A stretch of 64,000 nucleotides of DNA, from NCBI GenBank assembly GCA_944323995.1, contig CALUUN010000001.1, positions 1 through 64,000 on the forward strand. Direction: 5' to 3'. The stretch comes from Candidatus Gastranaerophilales bacterium. Lineage in GTDB: Bacteria; Cyanobacteriota; Vampirovibrionia; Gastranaerophilales; Gastranaerophilaceae. A program made the position numbers and the translations under genes. The notes under the pieces are model-generated. The model was not told the DNA's origin, searched no databases, and saw nothing but the letters and a program-made list of their open reading frames with translations. Shown here in pieces: positions 23,181 to 64,000 of the stretch (within the stretch, counting starts at the first letter, position 1; the number at the start of each line of letters is the position of its first letter).

Positions 23181-23312
23181 ATAAGATAGTGAATAAGTGA
23201 ATAAGGTAATAAGGGAATAAGTGTTATATAAAAATTGATATTGAATAATTCCGCTCAGATTAATAACTGATACAACTTATTCACCTATTCACTTATTTAC
23301 TTATTCCCTTAT
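23181..23312. repeat. Palindromic intergenic repeat, copy 1
   Basis: The ends are inverted: GTAATAAGGGAATAAGTGTT on the left and AACTTATTCACCTATTCACT, then TATTTACTTATTCCCTTAT on the right. A central GCTCAGATTAA is shared with copies at 24018 and 53949. All three are in the same orientation. No coding potential; it resembles a MITE- or REP-like element. Confidence 0.75.
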
Positions 23313-23376
23313 ATTAACTTTTGTAACAAAACACCTCAAAAACAGCAATATTGCATGATATATATACTTTATATAA
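23313..23376 (+). promoter_or_regulatory. Shared-type promoter upstream of the coiled-coil protein
   Basis: ATTAACTTTTGTAACAAAAC begins at 23313, directly after repeat copy 1. ACTTTATATAATTAA begins at 23366, 53 bp on. This is the same two-box layout as before 14932, 29568, 50774 and 51696. Confidence 0.5.
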
Positions 23377-24017: not shown

Positions 24018-24128
24018 AAGGGAATAAGAGTTATATAAAAAAGCGGTATTGGACATGCGCTCAGATTAATCAATATATAACTTATTCACCTATTCACTTA
24101 CTCACTTATTCACTTTATCTTATTCACT
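24018..24128. repeat. Palindromic intergenic repeat, copy 2
   Basis: AAGGGAATAAGAGTTATAT on the left mirrors ATATAACTTATTCACC on the right, with GCTCAGATTAAT in the centre. The right end runs into the last codons of thrB (SLSE-stop), so the element has contributed the C-terminus of that gene. Same orientation as copies 1 and 3. Confidence 0.72.
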
Positions 24129-25067
24129 TAAAGAAACAACCTGTGCACCGTTGTTTTCAACATTAAGCGACTTGATAACCGCCTTGACGTTCAAATCAGC
24201 CCAGGTTTCTTTCACAATAGAATGAATTTTATCAAGATTATTTTTCTGCGAAATTATTAATATAGAAGGGCCGGCGCCGCTTAAAACACAACCGATAACA
24301 TTGTCTTCATGTTTTAAATTGGCAATAATCTTTTCAAGCCCCGGAACAAGTTTCATTCTGTACGGCTGGTGAAGTTTGTCCTGAAGTGCAAGTTTCATAA
24401 GTTCAGCATCTTTTGTGTTGATAGCTTCAACAAACATTGCCATGCGCTTTGCATTGAAAACAGCATCACTCATCGGAACTTCTTTCGGTAATACAGACCT
24501 TGAAATATCTGTTGAAAGTTCATAATCCGGAATACAAACCGTAATAGACCATTCATCCGGCCAATTGAGCTTTCTGTAAACTACTGTGCAGTCATCTTCC
24601 TGCGAAGAAATTACAAGCCCGCCGACAATTGCAGGTGTAATATTGTCAGGATGTCCCTCTACTTCGGTCGCTATTGACAAAAGAGCCGCTTCATCAGCAG
24701 GTCTTCCTAAAAGCTCGTTTGCGGCTATCAAACCGCCTACAATAACCGATGCACTGCTGCCTAAGCCTCTTGCTATAGGAATATTAGAGTGTACATTTAT
24801 CTTTAATTCACTCGGCGTCTGGCCTATTGAGTTATATAAAAGCTCTACAGCCTTGTAAATTAAGCTGTTTTCGTTCAATGACAAATGCTCTATTGACATT
24901 TCATCAACCGCGTCATCCTCGGAAATAACGTTTATTTCAACGCCTGTTCCGGGTAAAACAGTCTCTTCTATAGTTATAGTGTTATATATCGGCAATGCCA
25001 TCCCTAAACAATCAAATCCGGGGCCTATATTCGCCGTTGTAGCCGGCACTTTTACGCTTACTTTCAT
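24120..25067 (-). CDS. thrB: Homoserine kinase
   Basis: A 315-residue GHMP-fold kinase that phosphorylates homoserine in threonine synthesis. Motifs: VKVPATTANIGPGFDCLG (N-terminal substrate loop), PIARGLGSSASVIVGG (ATP loop), EGHPDNITPAIVGG, and CVLSGAGPSILII. I use ATG 25067, preceded by GAGGA, rather than an upstream in-frame start at 25106. The final residues lie in a copy of the palindromic repeat. No other threonine-pathway gene is adjacent. Confidence 0.95.
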   Translation of the reverse strand: MKVSVKVPATTANIGPGFDCLGMALPIYNTITIEETVLPGTGVEINVISEDDAVDEMSIEHLSLNENSLIYKAVELLYNSIGQTPSELKINVHSNIPIARGLGSSASVIVGGLIAANELLGRPADEAALLSIATEVEGHPDNITPAIVGGLVISSQEDDCTVVYRKLNWPDEWSITVCIPDYELSTDISRSVLPKEVPMSDAVFNAKRMAMFVEAINTKDAELMKLALQDKLHQPYRMKLVPGLEKIIANLKHEDNVIGCVLSGAGPSILIISQKNNLDKIHSIVKETWADLNVKAVIKSLNVENNGAQVVSLSE

Positions 25068-33377: not shown

Positions 33378-34433
33378 ATGAAATTACAAACAAAAGAACG
33401 TAAGGCTTTTACACTTGCAGAAGTGCTAATAACTCTTGCGATTATAGGAATAGTCGCAGCACTGACAATCCCGACACTTGTACAGAATTATCAAACAAAA
33501 GCATGGAACACTGCATCACAGGTATTTCAGAGAAAACTCGGTGAAGCATTAAGGGTAATGAATGTTCAGGGAACCTTGGCAGGTTATACAACAACAGAAG
33601 CGTTTGTTGATGAATTGTCTAAACATATTAAAATAACAAGAATATGCAACAACGATGATATTACAACATGTTTTGCTGATAAAGTATACTGGGGTAAAGA
33701 AGGTGAAGAGCCGGAAGAAGTTGATATGTTCGAAATAAAAACATCGGAAAGTTTTGGCCAAAAGGACTGGGATACAAACACTGTAGCCGTACAATTTGCA
33801 AACGGTGTAAATGCCGTAATAGCGTATAACCCAGATTGTACTCAGAACCAATTTAGTAATCAGGTAACGGGAGAAAATTGTCTTGCTATATTATACGATG
33901 TAGACGGATTTAAGAATCCCAATACTGTATCAAAAGATTTAAGAAATAATAATAACGTATTAGCACTTGCCGGTGTAAAAAGCGGATTTTGTTTATCAGA
34001 CGGAACATGTTTCACCGCACCTTTTAAACCAACACCGTTAACGCGTGCAGAATGCATAGAAAGACAAGCAGAACTGGGCATAACATATTGTAGTGATTTA
34101 AACGATGATTTCTGGGGCGGCGCAGTAAAAGCATGCCATGATATGGGTTCAAGTTTACCGAGTCAGGAACAGCTAGATCAATTAGCAAGAGATTTGTATC
34201 CGGGTACGGAAATAAGCACAAGCAACGGAGTATCAGTTAGTGGTACAAGAGATAACGACCTTGCAGTATCAATGGGATTCATAACCTCACCCGATTCGTC
34301 GTTTTGGATTTGGTCCAGTGAGGAGGGCAGCAAGAACAACACGTACGGCCGCCACTTCTACTCCGCGAACACGCAACGGGTCTACGACCTCCGCAGCAAT
34401 AACTTCAGTCAGGTGGTGTGCTTAGCGGAATAA
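33378..34433 (+). CDS. Pilin-like protein A with DGR-type hypervariable C-terminus
   Basis: The 351-residue protein starts with a short basic leader and the type IV prepilin segment AFTLAEVLITLAIIGIVAAL (from residue 12), with Glu5 of the mature form and Ala, not Gly, before the cleavage site. A conserved middle (residues 30-150) is nearly identical to protein B at 61133. The C-terminal domain has the C-type-lectin-like layout WIWSSEE ... VVCLAE, and its last 40 codons are hypervariable. Such domains are the usual targets of diversity-generating retroelements and bind ligands. A TATAAT and GGAG ribosome site precede ATG 33378, and unlike B there is no poly-G tract. It diverges from the XRE gene. 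Confidence 0.88.
   Translation: MKLQTKERKAFTLAEVLITLAIIGIVAALTIPTLVQNYQTKAWNTASQVFQRKLGEALRVMNVQGTLAGYTTTEAFVDELSKHIKITRICNNDDITTCFADKVYWGKEGEEPEEVDMFEIKTSESFGQKDWDTNTVAVQFANGVNAVIAYNPDCTQNQFSNQVTGENCLAILYDVDGFKNPNTVSKDLRNNNNVLALAGVKSGFCLSDGTCFTAPFKPTPLTRAECIERQAELGITYCSDLNDDFWGGAVKACHDMGSSLPSQEQLDQLARDLYPGTEISTSNGVSVSGTRDNDLAVSMGFITSPDSSFWIWSSEEGSKNNTYGRHFYSANTQRVYDLRSNNFSQVVCLAE
34311..34433 (+). repeat. Variable region (VR) of pilin-like gene A
   Basis: From TGGTCCAGTGAGGAG to GTGTGCTTAGCGGAATAA the region aligns without gaps to 62143-62265. Of 120 sense positions 31 differ, 29 in codon positions 1 or 2 and only 2 in position 3. The ends are identical (TGGTCCAGTGAGGAG and TGCTTAGCGGAAT). 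The GC-rich composition with NNC codons contrasts with the AT-rich gene body. This pattern matches adenine-directed DGR mutagenesis of AAC-type codons. Confidence 0.75.
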
Positions 34434-53561: not shown

Positions 53562-53966
53562 TTGGAAGAAGTTGATTCTAAGAAACTGGCATGCGTCATT
53601 GCGCGCGTACTTGATGACAAGCTGGCAAACAATATAACAATCTTAAACATAAGCAGCGTATCTTCACTCGGGGATTATTTTGTTATTGCATCGGCGGATT
53701 CTCCGACGCAGGTAAAATCTTTGATGATGAGTGTTAAAGAAATGATAAAAAAACATTTCGGACGTTCACCCGTACGGATGGAAAACGATTTAAAAAACCG
53801 CTGGAATCTTCTGGACTACGGCGACGTTATTGTGCACATACTGCATCGTGATGAGCGCGAAACCTACGCTATTGAAAAATTCTGGAACCACGCGTTCAGT
53901 ATTCCGGAAGAAATCTGGATGGCTGAATCTGAAGGGTATAGCGAGTATAAGGGAATAGGGGAATAA
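53562..53966 (+). CDS. rsfS: Ribosomal silencing factor RsfS (Iojap)
   Basis: The 134-residue protein binds L14 and blocks subunit joining when cells are starved. It has the conserved VSSLGDYFVIASADSPTQVK, GRSPVRMENDLKNRWNLLDY and GDVIVHILHRDERETYAIEKFW. The start is TTG 53562 with AGAGG upstream. Its last codons (SEYKGIGE) are formed by the left end of palindromic repeat copy 3, so the repeat has replaced or extended the native C-terminus. Confidence 0.95.
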   Translation: MEEVDSKKLACVIARVLDDKLANNITILNISSVSSLGDYFVIASADSPTQVKSLMMSVKEMIKKHFGRSPVRMENDLKNRWNLLDYGDVIVHILHRDERETYAIEKFWNHAFSIPEEIWMAESEGYSEYKGIGE

Positions 53967-54072
53967 GGTAATAAGGGAATAAGTGTTATCATTAAAGTAT
54001 TATTGGAATATGTGCTCAGATTAAAACTAATATACAACTCATTCCCTTATTTACTTATTTACTTATTCCCTT
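53949..54072. repeat. Palindromic intergenic repeat, copy 3
   Basis: GGTAATAAGGGAATAAGTGT on the left mirrors AACTCATTCCCTTATTTACT, then TATTTACTTATTCCC on the right, with GTGCTCAGATTAA in the centre. Same orientation and core as the copies at 23181 and 24018, 30 kb away. The left end lies inside rsfS. Confidence 0.75.
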
Positions 54073-54116
54073 TCCTTAACTTTTCTATACAATTTTACAA
54101 AACGGAATAAATACGC

Positions 54117-54128: not shown

Positions 54129-55190
54129 ATGGAAAATATAGATCAACAAATAAACGACGCCATAATGGAAATGGCCAAAGATCCGCAAAATGCGGAAGGT
54201 TACCACAAACTTGCAAACCTTTACATGCAGCAGGAAAATTATGACAAAGTAATGTCGGTTCTTGAGAGTCTGCTGTCAATTCATCCTGATGATATTCAGG
54301 CACTGGTCGGCATGGGTACAATGTGGTTTTATGAAAAAGATTTCAGAAAATCTCTTTCTTACTATAATAAAGCTCTTGAAATTAATCCGAAAAACTACCT
54401 TATTTATTTCAATATAGGTAACGTTTTTGCAGAATGGAAGAATTTTCCCAAAGCGCTTTTCTACTACAACCGTGCAATTGACTTAAATTCGGTTAATCCG
54501 GAAATCTACAATGCAATCGCACTTTTGTACGCTGATTTTGAAGATTATATTGAATCTAAAGCATATTACGAAAAAGCACTTTCACTTGATCCTGAAAATA
54601 TCACGGCCCTTGTTGATATGGGTAATGTTTGCTTTAAACTTTACGACTATGAAACCGCACTTGATCTTTATAAGCGAGTGTTCGTCTTAAATCCTGACAA
54701 CAAAGTTGTTGCGATATGTATAGGCAACACCCTTACATTGATGAAAGAACGCGAACAGGCATACAACTGGTTTGAAAAAGCGCTTCAAATGGAAGGTGAT
54801 AACTATAAGGCTTATATCTGTTATGCAATTGCACTTTCCGAATTTAAAGAATACAATATGGCTGAAGAAATGTACAAACGTGCAATGAAAGTTAATCCGC
54901 AGGAGAAAAACGCTTATGTACTGCTTGCAAACCTGTACACAAACTACAACCGTATTGATCTGGCAATGAACATGTACAAAGAAGCTCTCCGCGTAAAACC
55001 GAACGATGCAGAAACATATATGCTTCTGGGGAACGCACATTACCTTGACGGTGATATTGAAAAGGCAATAGCGTCATACAGATCTTCAATAAGCATCCAA
55101 CCGGAAAATGATGAATACAGACTTGTATACAATCAGGTTCTGGAAGAATATATCGACAAAAAACGCAGCGGAGAAATTAAAGAAGCCTGA
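54129..55190 (+). CDS. Tetratricopeptide repeat protein
   Basis: A 353-residue protein built of about nine TPR units. Clear examples are FRKSLSYYNKALEINPKNY, FPKALFYYNRAIDLNSVNPE and IEKAIASYRSSISIQPEND. It lacks signal peptide and catalytic domain, so it is a cytosolic scaffold. The TGA stop overlaps the ATG of the membrane protein gene (TGATG), implying coupled translation and a functional link with it. A -10 box 6 nt before the ATG suggests a leaderless message. Confidence 0.9.
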   Translation: MENIDQQINDAIMEMAKDPQNAEGYHKLANLYMQQENYDKVMSVLESLLSIHPDDIQALVGMGTMWFYEKDFRKSLSYYNKALEINPKNYLIYFNIGNVFAEWKNFPKALFYYNRAIDLNSVNPEIYNAIALLYADFEDYIESKAYYEKALSLDPENITALVDMGNVCFKLYDYETALDLYKRVFVLNPDNKVVAICIGNTLTLMKEREQAYNWFEKALQMEGDNYKAYICYAIALSEFKEYNMAEEMYKRAMKVNPQEKNAYVLLANLYTNYNRIDLAMNMYKEALRVKPNDAETYMLLGNAHYLDGDIEKAIASYRSSISIQPENDEYRLVYNQVLEEYIDKKRSGEIKEA

Positions 55191-55603
55191 TGAGCGAATA
55201 TGATGCAAAACCGTATATGATAGAGCGTATAGTAGCCGCATTAAGCTACTTTACCATGGGATTTGCAGGTTTTATATGGCTTATTCTCGGACTCTTCACT
55301 AAAGCCCGTCTGAGGCCTTTTATGCAATATCATATTTTCCAGTCGATTTTTATATCTATTGCATATTTTCTTCTTGCAACACTTTTAGGTTTTGTGCTTA
55401 ATATACTGAGTTTTGTACCTTTTATAAACAGAATTGTTGCACAGCTGACGTTTTATTTAAACGCGCCTGTATTCGGGCCGTACTCGCTTATACAAACAGT
55501 AATCTATGCAATTATAATCTATCTTGCCGTAACCTCATTTATGGGGCAATACAGCAGATTTCCGTGGATATCGGACATAATTGACCGGAATGTCGGCCGT
55601 TAA
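55190..55603 (+). CDS. Small four-helix membrane protein, Tic20-like
   Basis: The 137-residue protein has four predicted transmembrane segments (AALSYFTMGFAGFIWLILGL, FQSIFISIAYFLLATLLGFV, a third near residue 85, and LIQTVIYAIIIYLAVTSFMG). The pattern of RPFMQYHIFQSIFI in the second helix recalls cyanobacterial Tic20-family proteins, which keep PFxRFxxxQA at that place. I regard this assignment as tentative. It is translationally coupled to the TPR protein; its 3' end overlaps the convergent glycosidase by 4 bp. Confidence 0.6.
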   Translation: MSEYDAKPYMIERIVAALSYFTMGFAGFIWLILGLFTKARLRPFMQYHIFQSIFISIAYFLLATLLGFVLNILSFVPFINRIVAQLTFYLNAPVFGPYSLIQTVIYAIIIYLAVTSFMGQYSRFPWISDIIDRNVGR

Positions 55604-56847
55604 CTTTTTTTAGAAAGTACGATTGCGTTTGAAAGTGCAATTCCGCCTTTAACCTGCGGATTATTAACAACTTTTCCGTCAACGTACATAACTGTGGAAC
55701 CGCCGCCGTCAAGGTTCATTGCGTTAACACAGCCTGCGGATTTCATAAAGTTTGCAAGCTGCATAAGCGTCATGCCGACTGAACTTCCTTCGCGGCCGTC
55801 GACAGCGACAAGGATAAGGTTATTATCTTCAGTGTAGCCGATTGCGCTTCTGGGGTTTTTGCCGCCGATTGAACCCAATTTTTGCGCTGTCATATCAACA
55901 AAAACTTCATTATTTTTTACGAGATACGGGCCGCCGCTGATTATGTGTTTTACGTTTTTCCATTCAGGAATTGTGTTCAACTCAAGGTCAACTTTGTCAC
56001 CGGTTTTGAAAACATTTAAAAGAGAAGCAGGGCCTGCAATTACAAATCCGTTTTGCGGAATTTTGAGTGCAGAGGTTGAAATTTGCGTAATTTTGTTTTT
56101 GTCATTTACGGCAAATTGCAGGCCGTACTTAGGTGACGGAGGTGCGATTGTGCCCCAGTCGGGGGTATAAGCCAAAACGTATGTCGAAAGCATTCTGGGC
56201 TGGTTAATATTATCAACTTTAACGGTATTTTTACCTGATTTAATGCGGGCATTCAGCTGAACTCTTGCAATATCATATCCGTCATCAAAAATTCCCATTG
56301 CAACCCTGTCATAAATCGGGCCGGTCAATAATTTTTCATTTATCATTAAAGTTCCGAGCGGAACACCGGTCTGCGGTTTGAAAAACGTACCGTTGAGCGC
56401 AATGACAGAATTAGAATCTTTTGCCATCGTGGAAATTGAACTTTTGTTTGCAAGGGTATCAGAAGCTAAAACCGGAGTCAGAGTATAATCTTTTGCAATT
56501 CGCGGGTTTATCTCAACAACATTAATTCTGACAGGTCTGCCGTCATAGTATTTTGTAAGTTTTATATGCTTTATACCGTCGTCTATATCAACAATTGCCG
56601 CGCCCGGAAATTTCTTCTTAACAGCCTCATCAAAATTTTTGATTTCAGCTTTTGAAGAAACCTCGCTGATAATCTGAATTGATGCCTCATTTGTAATCGG
56701 TGCCGGGATTTTAGCCACATAATCATTTGCAAAAATCGGAACAAACACCGCCTGTGTAAATAAGAATGCGCCTGCAACGGCAAAATTCACAACTATCCCA
56801 ATAACGCTCAATAACCGCTTTTCAGGGCACAACAACATAGTATCCAT
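55600..56847 (-). CDS. Exported phosphodiester glycosidase family protein
   Basis: The 415-residue protein has an N-terminal membrane anchor (LLSVIGIVVNFAVAGAFLFT) and a C-terminal NAGPA domain (PF09992). Conserved motifs are VIALNGTFFKP, NPRSAIGYTEDNNLILVAVD, LANFMKSAGCVNAMNLDGGG, and STVMYVDGKVV. The family removes alpha-GlcNAc from phosphodiester-linked glycans, and many cyanobacteria carry exported copies. GAGGTAAAGCT precedes ATG 56847. The 170 bp upstream hold nothing I can name. Confidence 0.87.
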   Translation of the reverse strand: MDTMLLCPEKRLLSVIGIVVNFAVAGAFLFTQAVFVPIFANDYVAKIPAPITNEASIQIISEVSSKAEIKNFDEAVKKKFPGAAIVDIDDGIKHIKLTKYYDGRPVRINVVEINPRIAKDYTLTPVLASDTLANKSSISTMAKDSNSVIALNGTFFKPQTGVPLGTLMINEKLLTGPIYDRVAMGIFDDGYDIARVQLNARIKSGKNTVKVDNINQPRMLSTYVLAYTPDWGTIAPPSPKYGLQFAVNDKNKITQISTSALKIPQNGFVIAGPASLLNVFKTGDKVDLELNTIPEWKNVKHIISGGPYLVKNNEVFVDMTAQKLGSIGGKNPRSAIGYTEDNNLILVAVDGREGSSVGMTLMQLANFMKSAGCVNAMNLDGGGSTVMYVDGKVVNNPQVKGGIALSNAIVLSKKS

Positions 56848-57019
56848 AGCTTTACCTCATAGATTGGAGTAACAGGATACCTTTTTGTTTATAGAGTGGG
56901 GTGGGGAATAACACTCTCTGGTACTATTATTATTCCCTGAAAACCCGCTTATATAACAGATTTAACAGGTTTTGAATCATGAATTTACAAAACTAAATAG
57001 AGGCAAACATACACTTAAT

Positions 57020-59308
57020 TTAGTCTACATCAACCGGCTCGCGCAGAATTTTTTCAATAGCCTCGCGCGCTGTAAAGACCAAAGATTCCGGCACGTTATC
57101 AATTGTCGTAAACTGGCGCAGAACATCAACCGTGCGTTTGAATGCTCTTACGATATCGCCTTCGCCCATGTCAATCTGTTCGGTAATCGTTTCCCATTCG
57201 GCACCTTCAACCCAGAGTTCTATAAGAGAAGAAAAATACGGGTTAATATAGCAGGGGGATTCAACCTGATACCTGTTTTGAACTTTTTCAACTTTGCGGC
57301 GGATATTTCTTATTAAATTAAGAGTTTTCCTGACAGTTTGCGAGAACGGAAGATAAGGGATGTCAATTCGCAAATCTTCTGTTGTAACCGCACAAATCAC
57401 AGCCGCAAGCTGGGAGGGTGAAAGTCCTTCAAGAACGTTAGAAAAAATAATTTCCGCGATAAAGAGTTCATTTTCAGAGCGGATTTGAGAGGTAGTAACA
57501 CCGTGCGGTGTCGGATAGTCCTCTTTTAAATACCCGAAATCATACAGAACACTTCTGTGCGCAAGAAATTTATTCCAATAAATATCACGCTGACGCTCCA
57601 TTTCTTTTTCAAGTTTAGCCTGCCGAACCTCAATACGCGCAAGGACTTCGAGATTTTTTGCGTGTTTTTTATAGCGGTTGCAGTTATCACAAGGGTAGGA
57701 GTGCAATTTTTCAAGTAACTCTTTGTTTGAATTTTTAAATGCAATAACCTCAGGAGACAAAGGCCGTTTTTTAGCCTGTTCCTGCTTGCATATTTTTTTG
57801 TAGGTAATTCTGTTTTGAACATACAGATGACGGAGCTTATCATATTTCAAAAAATCTTCATCGGAAATTTTGTGCTGACAGATGAAAACTCTTTGCTCTT
57901 TTTCATTTTCATTAGCCTCATACAGTTTCAAAATCGGCTGCAGACGCGAACCAGCGGAAAAATAGCCGAAACTTTTCAAAATAAGTTCTTTTGATTCTTC
58001 AAGCGAAAATCTTTGAAGCAAATTCAAAACCATTGAATAACTCGGCGAAAAGCGGCTTTCAAGCGGATTTGCATCACTCAAAACGAGTTCTGCGACATCT
58101 TCCGGAGTATCAAAAGCAGAACCGACAATGGTTACATAACCGATTTCATCCATGCCTCTGCGGCCTGCGCGGCCTGACATTTGCAAAAACTCACTTGCAG
58201 TAAGTTTTCTGTGCCCGGAATCCGTACGTTTGCTTATTGAACTTATGACGGTTGAACGTGCAGGCATGTTAATACCGGCAGCAAGTGTTTCGGTAGCAAA
58301 TACAACTTTTATCAGACCTTGTTGAAAGAGTTTTTCCACAAGATTTTTCCATGCAGGTAAAAGTCCGGCATGGTGAGAGGCAACACCCTGCAAAAGGTAT
58401 TCAATATGTTTGTTACCGTAAAGGTGAGGGTTTTCGGCAATATAATCATCAATAAACTGTCTTATTCTCGCCTGTTCATAAGGTGTAACCAGTTCTAACG
58501 AGGAGCATTTTTCCATTTGTTCATCACATTTTTTGCGGGAGAAAGTAAAATATATGGCGGGGAGCATGTCCTGCGCAGCAAGGTTGCGCACAACATTTCT
58601 TACCGGAGATTTTTGCTTATTTTTACCATGCTTGCCCCATTGGCGTTTTTCGGGCTTGATTTTCTTATTAAGCTGCCCGCTCGGAGTCAACAGCGGCAGA
58701 AGTTTATCCGGCTGGGAACTGTCAAAGTAATAAAATCTCAGAGGAACCGGCCTGAAATCAGTATTCACAAGCTCTGTTTTTGAATGAACAGTATTAATCC
58801 AATCGGTTAACTCATCAGCATTTGCAACCGTAGCGGAAAGCGCAATTATTTGAACATTGGTCGGACAGTAGATAATACTTTCTTCCCAGACCGTTCCGCG
58901 CTGCTCATCGTTCATGTAGTGAACTTCGTCAAGAACAACGTATTTCACATCTTTCAGATTATCCGCAACCGCCCCGAAATTTGTACCGTAGAGCATGTTT
59001 CGGAAAACTTCAGTAGTCATGACAACAATCTGAGCCGAGCGGTTAATTGAGGTATCGCCTGTTAAAAGCCCGACCTTATCCTGCCCGTATTTTTCGCCGA
59101 AATCGTAATATTTCTGGTTAGAAAGCGCTTTTAAAGGTGTTGTGTAAAATATCCGTTTGCCTTCTTCAAGTGCTCTGTGTATGGCATGCTGTGCTATGAC
59201 AGTTTTGCCGGCACCGGTGGGCGCGCAGACAACAACGCTTTTGCCTTCATCTATATACCTGCAGGCATCTTTTTGAAAATCATCAAGTTCAAACGGAAAT
59301 TCATACAT
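57020..59308 (-). CDS. Ski2/Mtr4-like DEAD-box RNA helicase with DSHCT domain
   Basis: A 762-residue SF2 helicase: APTGAGKTVIAQHA (motif I), YVVLDEVHYMND (DEVH box), ALSATVANADEL, FVFATETLAAGINMPAR-type motif V and QMSGRAGRRGMDE (motif VI). A coiled central region (about 470-590, with CDNCNRY, a possible metal pair) and a C-terminal DSHCT-like helical domain follow. Such helicases in cyanobacteria and actinobacteria are thought to unwind structured RNA during maturation or decay. It is a single-gene unit beside serS. Confidence 0.92.
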   Translation of the reverse strand: MYEFPFELDDFQKDACRYIDEGKSVVVCAPTGAGKTVIAQHAIHRALEEGKRIFYTTPLKALSNQKYYDFGEKYGQDKVGLLTGDTSINRSAQIVVMTTEVFRNMLYGTNFGAVADNLKDVKYVVLDEVHYMNDEQRGTVWEESIIYCPTNVQIIALSATVANADELTDWINTVHSKTELVNTDFRPVPLRFYYFDSSQPDKLLPLLTPSGQLNKKIKPEKRQWGKHGKNKQKSPVRNVVRNLAAQDMLPAIYFTFSRKKCDEQMEKCSSLELVTPYEQARIRQFIDDYIAENPHLYGNKHIEYLLQGVASHHAGLLPAWKNLVEKLFQQGLIKVVFATETLAAGINMPARSTVISSISKRTDSGHRKLTASEFLQMSGRAGRRGMDEIGYVTIVGSAFDTPEDVAELVLSDANPLESRFSPSYSMVLNLLQRFSLEESKELILKSFGYFSAGSRLQPILKLYEANENEKEQRVFICQHKISDEDFLKYDKLRHLYVQNRITYKKICKQEQAKKRPLSPEVIAFKNSNKELLEKLHSYPCDNCNRYKKHAKNLEVLARIEVRQAKLEKEMERQRDIYWNKFLAHRSVLYDFGYLKEDYPTPHGVTTSQIRSENELFIAEIIFSNVLEGLSPSQLAAVICAVTTEDLRIDIPYLPFSQTVRKTLNLIRNIRRKVEKVQNRYQVESPCYINPYFSSLIELWVEGAEWETITEQIDMGEGDIVRAFKRTVDVLRQFTTIDNVPESLVFTAREAIEKILREPVDVD

Positions 59309-59330
59309 TACAGCTTTATTTTACCCGTAT

Positions 59331-60599
59331 TTACTTAATCACGTCAAATCCTGTGTATTTTCTTAACACTTCGGGAATAACAATTGAGCCGTCAGCCTGC
59401 TGATAATTTTCTATAATAGCGGCGAAAGTTCTGCCGACAGCAAGACCGGAACCGTTAATCGTATGGACAAATCTGGTTTTGCCGGTTTGTTTGTCGCGGT
59501 ATCTTATATTAGCGCGGCGAGCCTGATAATCGCCGTAATTAGAACAGCTTGAAATTTCTTTGTAAGTACCGTAAGACGGCATCCAAACTTCCAAATCCCA
59601 GCATTTGTTAGCGGAAAATCCGATATCGGCCGTACAGAGAGCCTCACGGCGATACGGCAAGCCGAGGAGTTGAAGCATTTTTTCGGCATCTTCGGTTAAT
59701 TTTTCATGTTCTGCAGGACTTGATTCGGGAGTACAGAGCTTGACAAGTTCGACTTTGTTAAACTGGTGAACTCTGATAAGCCCTCTTGTATCTTTACCGG
59801 CAGAACCCGCTTCACGGCGAAAGCACGGAGTGTAAGCCGTCATATACATCGGAAGCTGATCTTCAGAAAGGATTTCGCCTGCGTAAATATTTGTAACAGG
59901 AACTTCCGCAGTCGGGATTAAATATAAATCTTCATCAACGCATTTGTACATGTCCTCGGCGAATTTCGGCAGCTGGCCCGTACCGGTCATGGTTGCCGCG
60001 TTTGCCATAAACGGCGGCAAAACTTCTTCATAACCCTGTTCAGATGTATGATAATCAAGGAAAAAGTTTATTATAGCGCGTTCCAATTTTGCACCGAGCC
60101 CGCGGTAAAGAGTAAATCTGCTCTGCGAAAGTTTAACACCCCGTTCAAAATCCACAAGGCCTTTTTCTTCGCAAATATCCCAGTGAGGTTTAAATTCAAA
60201 ATCAAATTTTCTCGGCTCACCCCATTTGTAAACCTCCTGATTGTCATCTTCAGATGTACCGATGGGGGTAGTTTCATCAGGAATATTCGGGATATGCAAA
60301 AGCAAATCACGCTGTCTTTCATCAAGAACCGATTGCTCATCTTCCAGCTGCTTGATATCATCACCGATTTTGCGGACATCTTCCTGAATTGCGTCTGTAT
60401 TTTCGCCTTTTTTCTTCAATTCACCGATTTTTTGCGATTCTGCCTTACGTTTAGCACGCAATTCATCTGCACGCGCCTGAATTTTTCTGCGTTCTACGTC
60501 TATTTCAATAACTTCATCCACTGACAAATCAGGATTTCTGCGTTTTAAAAGTTCGTTAATTTTTTCGGGATTTTCTCTGATTAATTTAATATCAAGCAT
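59331..60599 (-). CDS. serS: Seryl-tRNA synthetase
   Basis: A 422-residue class II synthetase. The N-terminal coiled-coil tRNA-binding arm spans about 30-110, followed by the catalytic core with [35 protein letters not shown] (motif 2), and [20 protein letters not shown] (motif 3). It charges tRNA-Ser and tRNA-Sec. Length and motifs are normal. Confidence 0.98.
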
Positions 60600-60738
60600 T
60601 TTTAAACCTCTTTCTCTTTACAGGCTAATTTTAATTTAAATATAAGTTATAATCAAGAGAAGAATAACTAAAATATCAATCCAAAGATTGATGTGCATTT
60701 GTTATAAAATATTGATAATATATGATGAGGGATATGTC

Positions 60739-61062
60739 ATGTTCAAAAAACTCGCACAACAATTGAGGGCAGCAAACGAAAAAAGCGAATACAAAACGGT
60801 TTCACTTCCGTTCGGTGAAGAATTTGTAACGCCTAAAAACGAGTTTTTAAAAAACCTTTCCAAAAAAGCTGTTGAGCTTTACGAAAAACAAACCGACATA
60901 AACAATTTTTCAAAACTCGTGCTTTCGGATCCCGAAAACACATCCCACAACAATCTGGTTAACAAATTATTTGAAGAAGGAGTTGCAGACCCGTTTGTAG
61001 ATGAAAAACTTGCCGACCTTGCGAATAATCAAAAGTTTTTGCGCGATCTTGGTCTGCTGTAA
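60739..61062 (+). CDS. Hypothetical helical protein
   Basis: The 107-residue product starts MFKKLAQQLRAANEKSEYKT and is mostly helical and charged, with no signal or membrane segment and no recognised motif. ATG 60739 is preceded by GAGGGA; an earlier in-frame ATG at 60688 lacks one. It lies just upstream of pilin-like gene B, separated by that gene's own promoter. Confidence 0.65.
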   Translation: MFKKLAQQLRAANEKSEYKTVSLPFGEEFVTPKNEFLKNLSKKAVELYEKQTDINNFSKLVLSDPENTSHNNLVNKLFEEGVADPFVDEKLADLANNQKFLRDLGLL

Positions 61063-61069
61063 ATTTTTC

Positions 61070-61098
61070 TTGCCAACAATTTGAAAAGCTGGTATAAT
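61070..61098 (+). promoter_or_regulatory. Strong promoter of pilin-like gene B
   Basis: TTGCCA (61070-61075), exactly 17 bp, then a perfect TATAAT (61093-61098). It places transcription start near 61105, ahead of GGAGG (61120-61124) and ATG 61133. It rules out the in-frame TTG at 61081, which lies inside the promoter. Confidence 0.7.
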
Positions 61099-61132
61099 AA
61101 ATTTTATGAAAAAGAAAACGGAGGAAAAACAA

Positions 61133-62265
61133 ATGACCAAAAACGCAGACTACATCACCTCCTTGAGTGGGGGGGGGGCTGTAAATCAGCTTCACGCGCT
61201 GAACACAGCAGTTTAATAACCCCAAAAGTTAAATCAGCTTTCACTTTAGCAGAAGTGCTGATAACATTAGCGATTATCGGCATAGTTGCGGCATTAACAA
61301 TCCCGACTTTAGTGCAAAATTATCAAACAAAAGCATGGAACACTGCATCACAGGTATTTCAGAGAAAACTCGGTGAAGCATTGAGAGTTATGAATGTTCA
61401 GGGAACTTTAGCGGGTTATACAACAACAGAAGCGTTTGTTGATGAATTATCTAAGCATATTAAGATAACAAGAATATGTGATAACGATGATATTACAACA
61501 TGCTTTTCTGATACCGTAACCTGGGGTGATGAAGAAGTTGACATGTCTAAAGTTAAAAAAGCTAAAAACTTCGGACAGGAAGATTGGGATACAAATACGG
61601 TGGCAGTACAGTTTGCAAACGGAGTGAACGGAGTAATAGCATACAATCCCGATTGCAGACAGAACCAATTCAGTAATGATGTAATAACAGTAGGCGAAAC
61701 CGGTATAGGTACAACCTGTCTTGCAATACTGTATGATGTAGACGGATTTAAGAATCCGAATACCGAAGGTAAAGATTTAAAGAATCTAAACGTAACAAGT
61801 TTAGGAGGCAGCAACTGTGCAATAGAGTTAAGTGACGGAACATGTTTTACAGCACCATTCTATCCAACAGCAAAGAGTTTATCTGATTGCGAAGCACAAA
61901 AGGGTGAACTAGGAATAAGTGAATGTTATTACGATGATGACTACTGGGCAGGTGCAGTAAAAGCATGTAAAGATATGGGTTCAACATTACCGAGTCAGGA
62001 ACAGTTAGACCAATTAGCGAGAGACTTGTACCCCGGCACAGAAATAAGCTCCACAGTCGAAAACAGCAACGGCACAAGAGATAACGACCTTGCCTTTGAG
62101 ATGGGCTTTCTAAGCTCTGCATCGACCGGCGAGTTTTATGTTTGGTCCAGTGAGGAGTGCAGCGAGTACAACGCGTACAGCCGCATCTTCTACTCCACGC
62201 GCACGATCCGGTACGGCAGCAGCCGCCACAACAGCCACTTTCAGGCGGCGTGCTTAGCGGAATAG
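61133..62265 (+). CDS. Pilin-like protein B, DGR-type variable C-terminus, out of frame at a G10 tract
   Basis: ATG 61133 has GGAGG 8 nt upstream, yet its frame ends at TAA 61214 after 27 codons because of ten G at 61169-61178. The pilin frame (SAFTLAEVLITLAIIGIVAA, conserved middle, WSSEE...AACLAE) is open through the same tract. With 11 or 8 G the product would start MTKNADYITSL and run into CKSASRAEHSSLITPK and the prepilin helix. No start codon lies between the tract and the pilin helix, so the gene as written is off. The body up to about residue 150 is nearly identical to protein A, and the last 40 codons are hypervariable. It is either phase-variable or carries a homopolymer miscall. 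Confidence 0.82.
61169..61178 (+). repeat. Poly-G tract (10 G), candidate phase-variation switch
   Basis: Ten G in an AT-rich genome, 36 nt downstream of a well-formed start codon. Slipped-strand changes of +1 or -2 would join start and pilin frames; with 9 G the frame ends at once (CTG TAA). Confidence 0.75.
62143..62265 (+). repeat. Variable region (VR) of pilin-like gene B
   Basis: Gap-free partner of 34311-34433, with identical ends (TGGTCCAGTGAGGAG and TGCTTAGCGGAAT) and 31 internal differences. Twenty-nine of them are in codon positions 1 or 2. No template repeat with the same ends was seen elsewhere in the window. Confidence 0.75.
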
Positions 62266-62301
62266 CATGTGTGCCGCAAGGCATGAGAAGATATATTTAA
62301 T

Positions 62302-62338
62302 AAGCGGTATTTATGACATTCCACAAGTGCCGCTTTTT
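62302..62338 (+). terminator. Terminator after pilin-like gene B
   Basis: AAGCGGTATTT pairs with AAGTGCCGCTT, including G-U pairs, around a 12-nt loop and is followed by T residues. A similar but less paired sequence follows gene A. Confidence 0.6.
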
Positions 62339-62340
62339 AA

Positions 62341-62458
62341 CAGCAAAATGGCCTCTCCCTCAAGGGGAGAGGCTGGTTTGCTGTAAAACTTGTCATGCTG
62401 AACTTGTTTCAGCATCTTGCAACCGTTATAGAATTGTAGGTCGGATTTACTAATCCGA
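62341..62458. repeat. Cluster of three intergenic palindromes
   Basis: First, CAGCAAA...TTTGCTG encloses GCCTCTCCC TCAA GGGGAGAGGC (62341-62383). Second, TGCTGAA CTTG TTTCAGCA (62396-62414). Third, TCGGATT TACT AATCCGA (62441-62458). They resemble scattered REP-type elements. The remaining bases to 62579 hold only a likely promoter and ribosome site for the next gene. Confidence 0.6.
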
Positions 62459-62579
62459 CAACGCCTCACCGGAGTTTTAAATCTGCATTTATCGCGCGCA
62501 CTTTTCTAAATTTACCCTTTCGTCGGTATTGAGTTTTTATTGTTTTTAATATATCCTTTTTGTATAAAGGGGAGAGCTT

Positions 62580-63854
62580 ATGCACGAAGAATTAAAAGAA
62601 ATTAACGAAGTCGTAAAAAATCTGGCATCATTTATCCAGCAAAATGAAACAGTCAAACCGGATTTTGAGGAGTATTTAAAAACGGTCGGCACATCAATGA
62701 ACATTCAGGCCGCATGTTTCAACTACATTTTTGAACGCAGACTGGGCGAAAAACACAAATCAATTCCTGAGCTTTATGTTGAAAACACAAAGAAACTTTC
62801 CGCATCGGATAAAAAGATTGCAGAAGCGCTCTCTCATTCGCTTTCAACCATTTTTGAAGTAAAAAAAATACTCAAAAACGGGTTTGAACTCTACAATGTA
62901 ATTAACGAAAGGCTTTATGACGTAACATCACTTGTCAAGATGACATCATTCAGAGGTGTGGGCGGCGGTCAGTACGTTATCGCGCGGATTTTTGAATACA
63001 AAAAAGTCTATTATCTGCTTGAAATTTCCGGCGTGCTTTCCGCAAGCAGAAAAGACGATGCCTTGAGGTTTGCTGTTGCAAAAATTATTGAAAACCCAGA
63101 ACTTGTTTATCAGGACAACCCCGAAAAATTAAAAGAACTTGAAAAAGACATCAAAAAAATTCATAAAAAATTCGTCGAATATTTCGGCTCTGACGAAGTT
63201 ATAACCACAAACAAATACGCTGATGACTTAATCGGAATGTTCAACGACTTTGCAGAAGGCGGAGAAAAAACCGACTATTCGGACAAAGTTCACCTGCCGG
63301 AGGAATTGAAGTTTTTCAATGTGAGCGAATTTAATAATTCGTATGAAAATTTCCTTGAAAATTCACTGGGCGGTTTTTCCTCTCATAACGAAGAATACGA
63401 CGTAGGCGTTCTGTTTGATGAAGAACTCGGCATGTATGCAATACCGTTTTACGGAACCTTCAACAAAATTTTTGAAGCAAAAGATTACACAAAAGTTCTT
63501 AATTACGACAAATGCATAAATTATTTTCTTTCAAATGACAAATTTTCGGCAAATCTTATCAAAAAAGTCGCCGAAAAACATGACAATTTTATGAAAACAG
63601 TTAACGAAGTTCTCGGTACAAAATACACGCTCGACGAACTTCTTGAAAAATTCAAATCAAGATACCTTGAAAATAAAATTATTTCATCAACTACGGTTCT
63701 TTACCGCTCAAAAGCCTTCTCTAACACGCTCGGGCTGATTGAGGAAGAAGAAAACAAACCTAAAATTGAAATCGACCGTAAAATCGGAAGAAATGACCCG
63801 TGCCCGTGCGGCAGCGGCAAAAAATACAAAAAATGCTGCGGTGCTGCAGTTTAA
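62580..63854 (+). CDS. SEC-C motif protein, function unknown
   Basis: The 424-residue protein is largely helical and charged, without signal peptide or membrane segment. It ends in the SEC-C zinc motif [19 protein letters not shown], as in SecA. The zinc tail usually contacts SecB or ribosomal/RNA partners. The body (about 1-395) has no motif I recognise; stretches such as [20 protein letters not shown] suggest a folded core. GGGGAGAG precedes the ATG. It could be a chaperone-like adaptor, but this is inferred from the tail only. Confidence 0.8.
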
Positions 63855-63870
63855 AAAATAAACTCATTTT

Positions 63871-64000
63871 TCAGGCTGTAAATTCACAAATCAGCGCCTT
63901 AAACGCGGCAGAAGAAATTCCGACTATGTTTTCAAAATCACCGTTAATTGATTTTACAAACCCTTCCGGAAGCTCCTGTATCCCGTATGAACCCGCCTTG
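63871..64000 (-). CDS. maf: Maf-family nucleotide pyrophosphatase, C-terminal part (partial)
   Basis: The last 42 codons of a minus-strand gene end at TGA 63871 and continue past the window edge. The sequence KAGSYGIQELPEGFVKSING then DFENIVGISS is the conserved C-terminus of Maf proteins, normally KAGAYGIQG...GDYxNVVGLP. Maf enzymes hydrolyse non-canonical nucleoside triphosphates and affect septation. It was too short and open-ended to be seen as a full frame. Confidence 0.85.
   Translation of the reverse strand, partial: KAGSYGIQELPEGFVKSINGDFENIVGISSAAFKALICEFTA

Follow-up and report, generated by a model that had tools for sequence, protein, structure and literature searches.

The poly-G tract of pilC in Neisseria is located in the signal-peptide region, and the phase-variable genes of Campylobacter are largely surface-glycan and flagellar genes. 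Slippage from G10 to G9 in pilC1 or pilC2 turns a tip adhesin associated with the Neisseria type IV pilus from on to off (PMC5231331). C. jejuni carries 18-39 phase-variable genes per genome, mostly with poly-G tracts of 9-10 within the ORFs (PMC6321876). In Listeria, the 5′ position of the poly-A tract of inlA leads to a clean truncation (an InlA of 8 aa) and thus to reversible inactivation (PMC2831843). Surface proteins may also be varied by diversity-generating retroelements (DGRs), of which the Bacteroides tip pilins (type V pilus) are targets (PMC12632263).

Here, we describe a locus of a Candidatus Gastranaerophilales bacterium at which a homopolymeric tract and a DGR target coincide, and we propose that its prepilin repertoire is probably subject to slipped-strand phase variation through poly-G tracts placed in the cleavable leaders. 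The window (the whole stretch of 64,000 nucleotides that was analysed) contains two paralogous genes, A and B, with the following features:

61070..61098, forward strand: sigma-70-like promoter TTGCCA-N17-TATAAT with an extended -10, matching the consensus at 11 of 12 positions
61120..61124, forward strand: Shine-Dalgarno sequence GGAGG of gene B, as read from the sequence
61133..61216, forward strand: ORF of 27 codons in the assembled (OFF) phase, MTKNADYITSLSGGGAVNQLHALNTAV and stop, translated from the ATG at 61133
61169..61178, forward strand: G10 tract of gene B, at which 8, 11 or 14 G restore the prepilin frame
61179..61239, forward strand: leader downstream of the tract, which reads CKSASRAEHSSLITPKVKSA when translated as prepilin, with stops in both other frames
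61240..62265, forward strand: intact mature prepilin-like protein of gene B, FTLAEVLIT..., 341 aa (N_methyl, IV_pilin_GFxxxE; pLDDT 85)
61807..62262, forward strand: C-type-lectin-like C-terminal domain of gene B in the predicted structure (model residues 190-341)
62143..62257, forward strand: DGR variable region (VR) of gene B, in which 18 of the 20 mismatches fall on adenines of the template repeat (TR)
33378..34433, forward strand: gene A, a paralogue that lacks a tract and has an in-frame ATG of its own
34311-34425, forward strand: VR of gene A, in which 17 of the 24 mismatches fall on adenines of the TR

The tract lies 12 codons downstream of ATG 61133, and translation of the frames confirms that its length sets the frame of this start codon. 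With the assembled G10, the peptide of 27 aa is closed by the TAA at 61214-61216, and no stop interrupts the prepilin frame between 61180 and its end at 62263-62265. An earlier, sequence-only reading of this DNA had described a consensus promoter, the GGAGG and the ATG, had considered that the G10 run throws the pilin frame out of register, had named G11 or G8 as the lengths that would restore it and had judged such a run striking at this base composition; all of these points hold, and G14 must be added to the restoring lengths. The only in-frame start 5′ of the tract at its assembled length, TTG 61081, falls within the promoter region and is not a credible start. Gene B has the class III leader motif with E5 and the hydrophobic alpha1 helix of type IV prepilin-like proteins; from this motif, the leader (61179..61239) is expected to be removed by a prepilin peptidase, and an A24 domain of this enzyme is encoded in the genome. 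An Rfam scan of positions 55000-64000 detected no RNA families. An inverted repeat, CCTCTCCCTCAAGGGGAGAGG, is found 3′ of gene B (62349-62375); it is possibly a dispersed palindromic element and also has a terminator-like score. Elsewhere in the window, AT-rich repeats of CTTATTCACTTATTC-like units are present at 23188-23325, 24075-24130 and 53942-54087 (families D4 and D5).

Of the G-runs of at least 4 on both strands of the window, 86 have length 4 and six have length 5, the tract of gene B being the one run of length 10; the expected number of runs of at least 10 is 0.001-0.007 per window under second- and first-order Markov models. The source genome (1.75 Mb in 35 contigs, 99.9% complete) contains 31 tracts of at least nine G, where about 0.2-1 would be expected; these genome-wide counts come from pattern searches of its contigs. 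A prepilin-type frame follows the tract in 28 of the 31, and the remaining three, situated at contig ends, were assigned by their leader sequence. Several leader types can be distinguished: T1, to which gene B belongs, is MAKNADYITSLS-Gn-CKSASRAEHSSLITPKVKSAFTLAEV; T2 is MMNSGFQPKW-G9-TSLSSHRAGFGVF; and the genome has further types, T3 to T5 and others. In total, the search located 79 genes with the prepilin motif. A tract is present in slightly under half of them; most of those lacking it, such as gene A, have an in-frame start and a short leader.

Some of these loci have particular arrangements. In four of them (G000:C10:13787, C12:35667, C13:6610 and C21:10625; L047, L051, L052 and L056), T1-type leaders end in the first of two FTLAEV motifs, which runs into other sequence (in several cases the genome's dispersed repeat) that is followed by the second motif, as if cassettes composed of promoter, leader and tract had recombined upstream of existing prepilin genes. 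Another prepilin gene with a tract (G000:C11:7376-8404, L049) has one in-frame TAG within the matched region. Contig breaks tend to fall at or near tracts and repeated leaders (G000 C3, C4, C9, C11, C14, C25, C26 and C28), so the annotation of such genes in MAGs is likely to be incomplete.

The genes behind out-of-frame tracts are well preserved. Among those with a visible stop, the ORF after the tract has at least 100 codons in 137 of 140 and at least 200 in 134 of 140, and the median dN/dS upstream of the VR is 0.225 for pairs in which both genes have a tract, as compared with 0.198 for pairs in which neither does. Such constraint on OFF genes implies either occasional production of their proteins or frequent exchange of leaders; in the latter case, the conservation of the gene bodies could partly stem from recent leader swaps between genes. 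As assembled, gene B is untranslatable from its start codon, and it might consequently be regarded as a decaying pseudogene with a tract that is a mere chance frameshift. The likelihood of this is practically negligible, given that its body of 341 codons is intact, with a dN/dS of about 0.2 against its paralogues, that it has a consensus promoter and a Shine-Dalgarno sequence, and that dozens of equivalent loci exist.

Tract length differs between leaders that are otherwise nearly the same. For instance, the tract of gene B (n=10) and that at C3:133293 (n=12) have flanks that are 97% and 100% identical over 36 and 45 bases, and the leader at C1:167723, slightly less similar to that of gene B, has n=13. 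Other near-identical leaders of unequal length are those of L261 (10 and 12), L156 and L168 (11 and 10) and L303 and L307 (11 and 10). As the leaders compared belong to paralogues or relatives, these pairs show that length changes faster than the flanks without giving its rate; pairs of genomes of the same species were sought between the collections, and none was found. The lengths observed for T1 are 10, 12 or 13, and never 11. By contrast, every complete copy of T2 has n=9; this uniformity is unexpected for a hypermutable tract, although assembly could have homogenised copies that repeat one another so closely. The absence of MutS was considered as a source of hypermutability and rejected, since MutS1 is present in the 14 genomes tested (14/14).

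Only 26 of the 179 distinct tracts preceded by an ATG and a Shine-Dalgarno sequence are in frame (~15%, where 33% would be expected; p=1.7e-8), and the depletion persists when tracts that share a post-tract sequence are counted once (about 20 of 138; p=7e-7). Leaving T2 out, 26 of 170 tracts are in frame, 74 need -1 and 70 need +1. In this genome, just two of the 27 distinct contexts scored are in frame, one of them being the leader type shared by both targets that flank the reverse transcriptase on contig C19. Additionally, the two off-frames close earlier behind the tract than they do within gene bodies: the second of their stops is reached after a median of 9 codons, as against 14 (p=6e-16). 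The excess of OFF lengths is real in these assemblies, and in-frame lengths are too rare for neutral drift, so that the model needs selection for OFF, or some other mechanism, in addition. Our own reading is that the ON phase is usually selected against and that the assembler reports the majority length. As most tract genes are out of frame, MAG annotation will probably miscall them or miss them altogether.

As the data are all assemblies, nearly all of them metagenomic, and several contigs end at tracts or repeated leaders, the runs could have been miscounted by assembly or sequencing error, the true lengths being in frame. This explanation is highly improbable: the error would have to act in both directions, in the assemblies of many studies and on about 85% of the 179 tracts, and to leave the in-frame lengths as the rarest, and there are far too many tracts for error to have created them.

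The chief rival to phase variation is programmed slippage, in which the RNA polymerase or the ribosome would slip on the G-run and thereby produce a constant, low amount of in-frame minor pilin, with no need for the DNA length to switch. It would account for genes that are intact despite mostly out-of-frame tracts, and in some genomes a single length and phase does recur over divergent leaders (in G037, for example, most of the leaders examined have a G10 tract with a required shift of +1). The uniform G9 of T2 and the near-uniform lengths of G037 speak in its favour. Nevertheless, outside T2 the +1 and -1 shifts are needed about equally often, so that the required direction is not conserved across members, as it would be in a programmed frameshift. 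By itself, slippage in transcription or translation also leaves the depletion of in-frame lengths below one third and the unequal lengths of near-identical leaders unexplained. The parity of the shifts and the depletion thus argue against it as the sole explanation, and we regard it as unlikely.

Expression could also be graded rather than switched, if the first G of the tract completed an ATG, GTG or TTG with the preceding leader bases (as in a leader ending in AT or GT) and translation began there in another phase, making some OFF lengths weakly ON. At G9, the ATG-GGG of T2 is indeed in the prepilin frame, and the same holds for 13 of 24 ATGs and 4 of 7 GTGs at tract edges. For the edge ATG of T2, however, no Shine-Dalgarno sequence was seen at the proper spacing, the leaders ending in AT, GT or TT amount to 34 of about 190, and the explanation is inapplicable to gene B at G10; it is, therefore, very unlikely.

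The layout of gene B is repeated across the family, as a Shine-Dalgarno sequence, an ATG, ~7-12 codons, a tract of G8-14, ~15-25 codons and the prepilin motif. The comparison of tract length and frame with related genomes, which the sequence-only reading had put forward as a check, favours its proposal: lengths vary, tracts are mostly out of frame, and the pattern from G8 to the prepilin motif is matched in 63 of 288 sampled genomes of the family, belonging to 13 of 41 genera; the richest genome has 34 tracts by the strict pattern. A reversed-pattern control gave zero matches, and a class-wide sample outside the family gave none in 11 genomes from other families of the order and none in 79 from other orders. 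The named matches are mostly Candidatus Gastranaerophilales or Melainabacteria MAGs; the few in other phyla are each single. A scan of IMG/VR produced one match, in a phage contig and with no prepilin context, which was discarded as apparently due to chance.

When all tracts of at least eight G are counted, the totals per genome (121 in G134, 93 in G013, 92 in G037 and 87 in G148) exceed those of the strict prepilin pattern, and a recognisable prepilin frame follows in about half of the tracts sampled. Tracts of this kind with no long prepilin frame include L359, L360 and L363 (G134), where leaders with an ATG are followed by short, similar, KLRVKNKLIYYF-like tails and a stop, and L329, L340 and L354 (G013), where a NRFCRSLFHNINPPF-type frame recurs.

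The second layer of variation has its machinery on contig C19, in the order target, Avd-like protein, TR (G000:C19:22883-22997), reverse transcriptase and second target. The reverse transcriptase has an RVT_1 domain with the motifs IGNLTSQ and YVDD, and the Avd-like protein is recognised by the Pfam model bAvd and scores 70.8 bits with the NCBIfam model DivGenRetAVD, just below its cut-off of 80. The VR of gene B differs from the TR at 20 positions, 18 of which are TR adenines (Fisher p=1.4e-7); with TR, Avd and reverse transcriptase in the genome, the proposal of the sequence-only reading that gene B is a DGR target is well founded. There are about 19 dispersed VRs in this genome, and where the 5′ end of a DGR target can be seen, a tract is present in about nine cases and absent in eight, gene A being one of the latter. 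On either side of the reverse transcriptase, both targets (G000:C19:20737 and C19:24963; L055) share one G10 leader that is in frame, unlike most dispersed tract genes. A second DGR-like reverse transcriptase of 371 aa, also with IGNLTSQ, is found at G000:C8:56686-57366 (L114), where the other strand encodes an Avd-like ORF.

Twenty tract-rich genomes of the family were compared for close relatives of the C19 reverse transcriptase, and just two had one. Consequently, the idea that tracts depend on a DGR as a general rule was rejected, and the tract system is independent of this DGR. No VR-TR matches were found among the few loci compared from the relatives G013 and G233.

The AlphaFold2 model of gene B (pLDDT 85, pTM 0.51) has an N-terminal helix of 52 residues and a C-terminal domain that, in this predicted structure, aligns with C-type lectins, intimin and Mtd variants at Z 6-10 (about 6.5 for the Mtd variants and 9.8 for the bacterial C-terminal domain 8oks). 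Values of Z below 8 would be weak alone, but the consistent fold class and the DGR context agree with the predicted C-type-lectin-like fold. Foldseek alone gave no match for the model at E<=0.001.

In the phase variation that we favour, gene B would belong to a large set of type IV prepilin-like adhesins, and slippage during replication would alter the length of its G-run within populations. With 8, 11 or 14 G, ATG 61133 would be in frame with the prepilin and the gene would be ON; other lengths would be OFF soon past the tract because of the early stop codons in both other frames, and gene B as assembled would be in this state. Since the G-run precedes the predicted cleavage site (A^FTLAEV), its glycines would be discarded with the leader, and one product would be obtained at every in-frame length. 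When ON, the protein would presumably be displayed at the surface, to the benefit of the cell, with a C-terminal lectin-like domain whose sequence would be rewritten by the genome's DGR. With the tract switch and the DGR on one gene, presence and binding site would vary independently. The sequence-only reading had presented gene B as a protein with two layers of diversification; both find support in the differing tract lengths, the intact gene and the VR, but it is the switch and not the combination that is general, as the poly-G layout recurs family-wide, at dozens of prepilin genes in a genome. It is also conceivable, though we lean slightly against it, that tens of adhesive prepilins form a default-OFF library in Gastranaerophilales cells, whose members are released at low frequency by their leader tracts, and that in this species the DGR rewrites the binding domains, those of silent members included, so that new sites accumulate unseen until a slip occurs.

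If the switch operates as proposed, a widespread gut lineage, for the most part uncultured and little studied, would gain a phase-variable surface repertoire of the size of that of Campylobacter, built on one kind of protein, with the switch sited where the product stays unaltered; it would also provide a case of two diversification mechanisms on a single gene, and a prediction that can be tested in existing gut metagenome reads. In a literature search that took in only a minority of subscription journals and preprints, we found neither literature linking Gastranaerophilales or Melainabacteria to phase variation or DGRs nor an earlier description of the combination, of which the sequence-only reading likewise knew no description. 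As far as the searched literature shows, the new elements are a family-wide phasome in Gastranaerophilales that is centred on prepilins and placed in their leaders, its excess of OFF lengths and its overlap with DGR targets.

Among the described systems, Neisseria pilC resembles this one in that slippage of a G-run governs a type IV pilus adhesin. However, one or two genes are involved there, the product is a PilC/PilY1 protein with a Sec signal and not a prepilin, and no DGR takes part, whereas here there are dozens of prepilin-type genes with a leader that is expected to be cut by the prepilin peptidase. The Campylobacter poly-G phasome, beside which the presence of MutS1 here may be set, extends over many gene families, while that of this genome is confined to one, the prepilins, with the tract always in the leader; moreover, the share of ON genes is reported to be near the neutral expectation in a partial-genome set of Campylobacter and is depleted here. 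In Listeria inlA, the tract is poly-A, a single gene is concerned and there is no cleavable prepilin leader. Finally, the DGR is similar to those of Bordetella phage BPP-1 (Mtd-type) and Bacteroides in its reverse transcriptase, Avd and TR, in the adenine-specific differences of its VRs and in the predicted C-type-lectin-like fold of the target, but differs from them in its about 19 dispersed VRs, located in type IV prepilin-like proteins, about half of which lie behind a poly-G tract.
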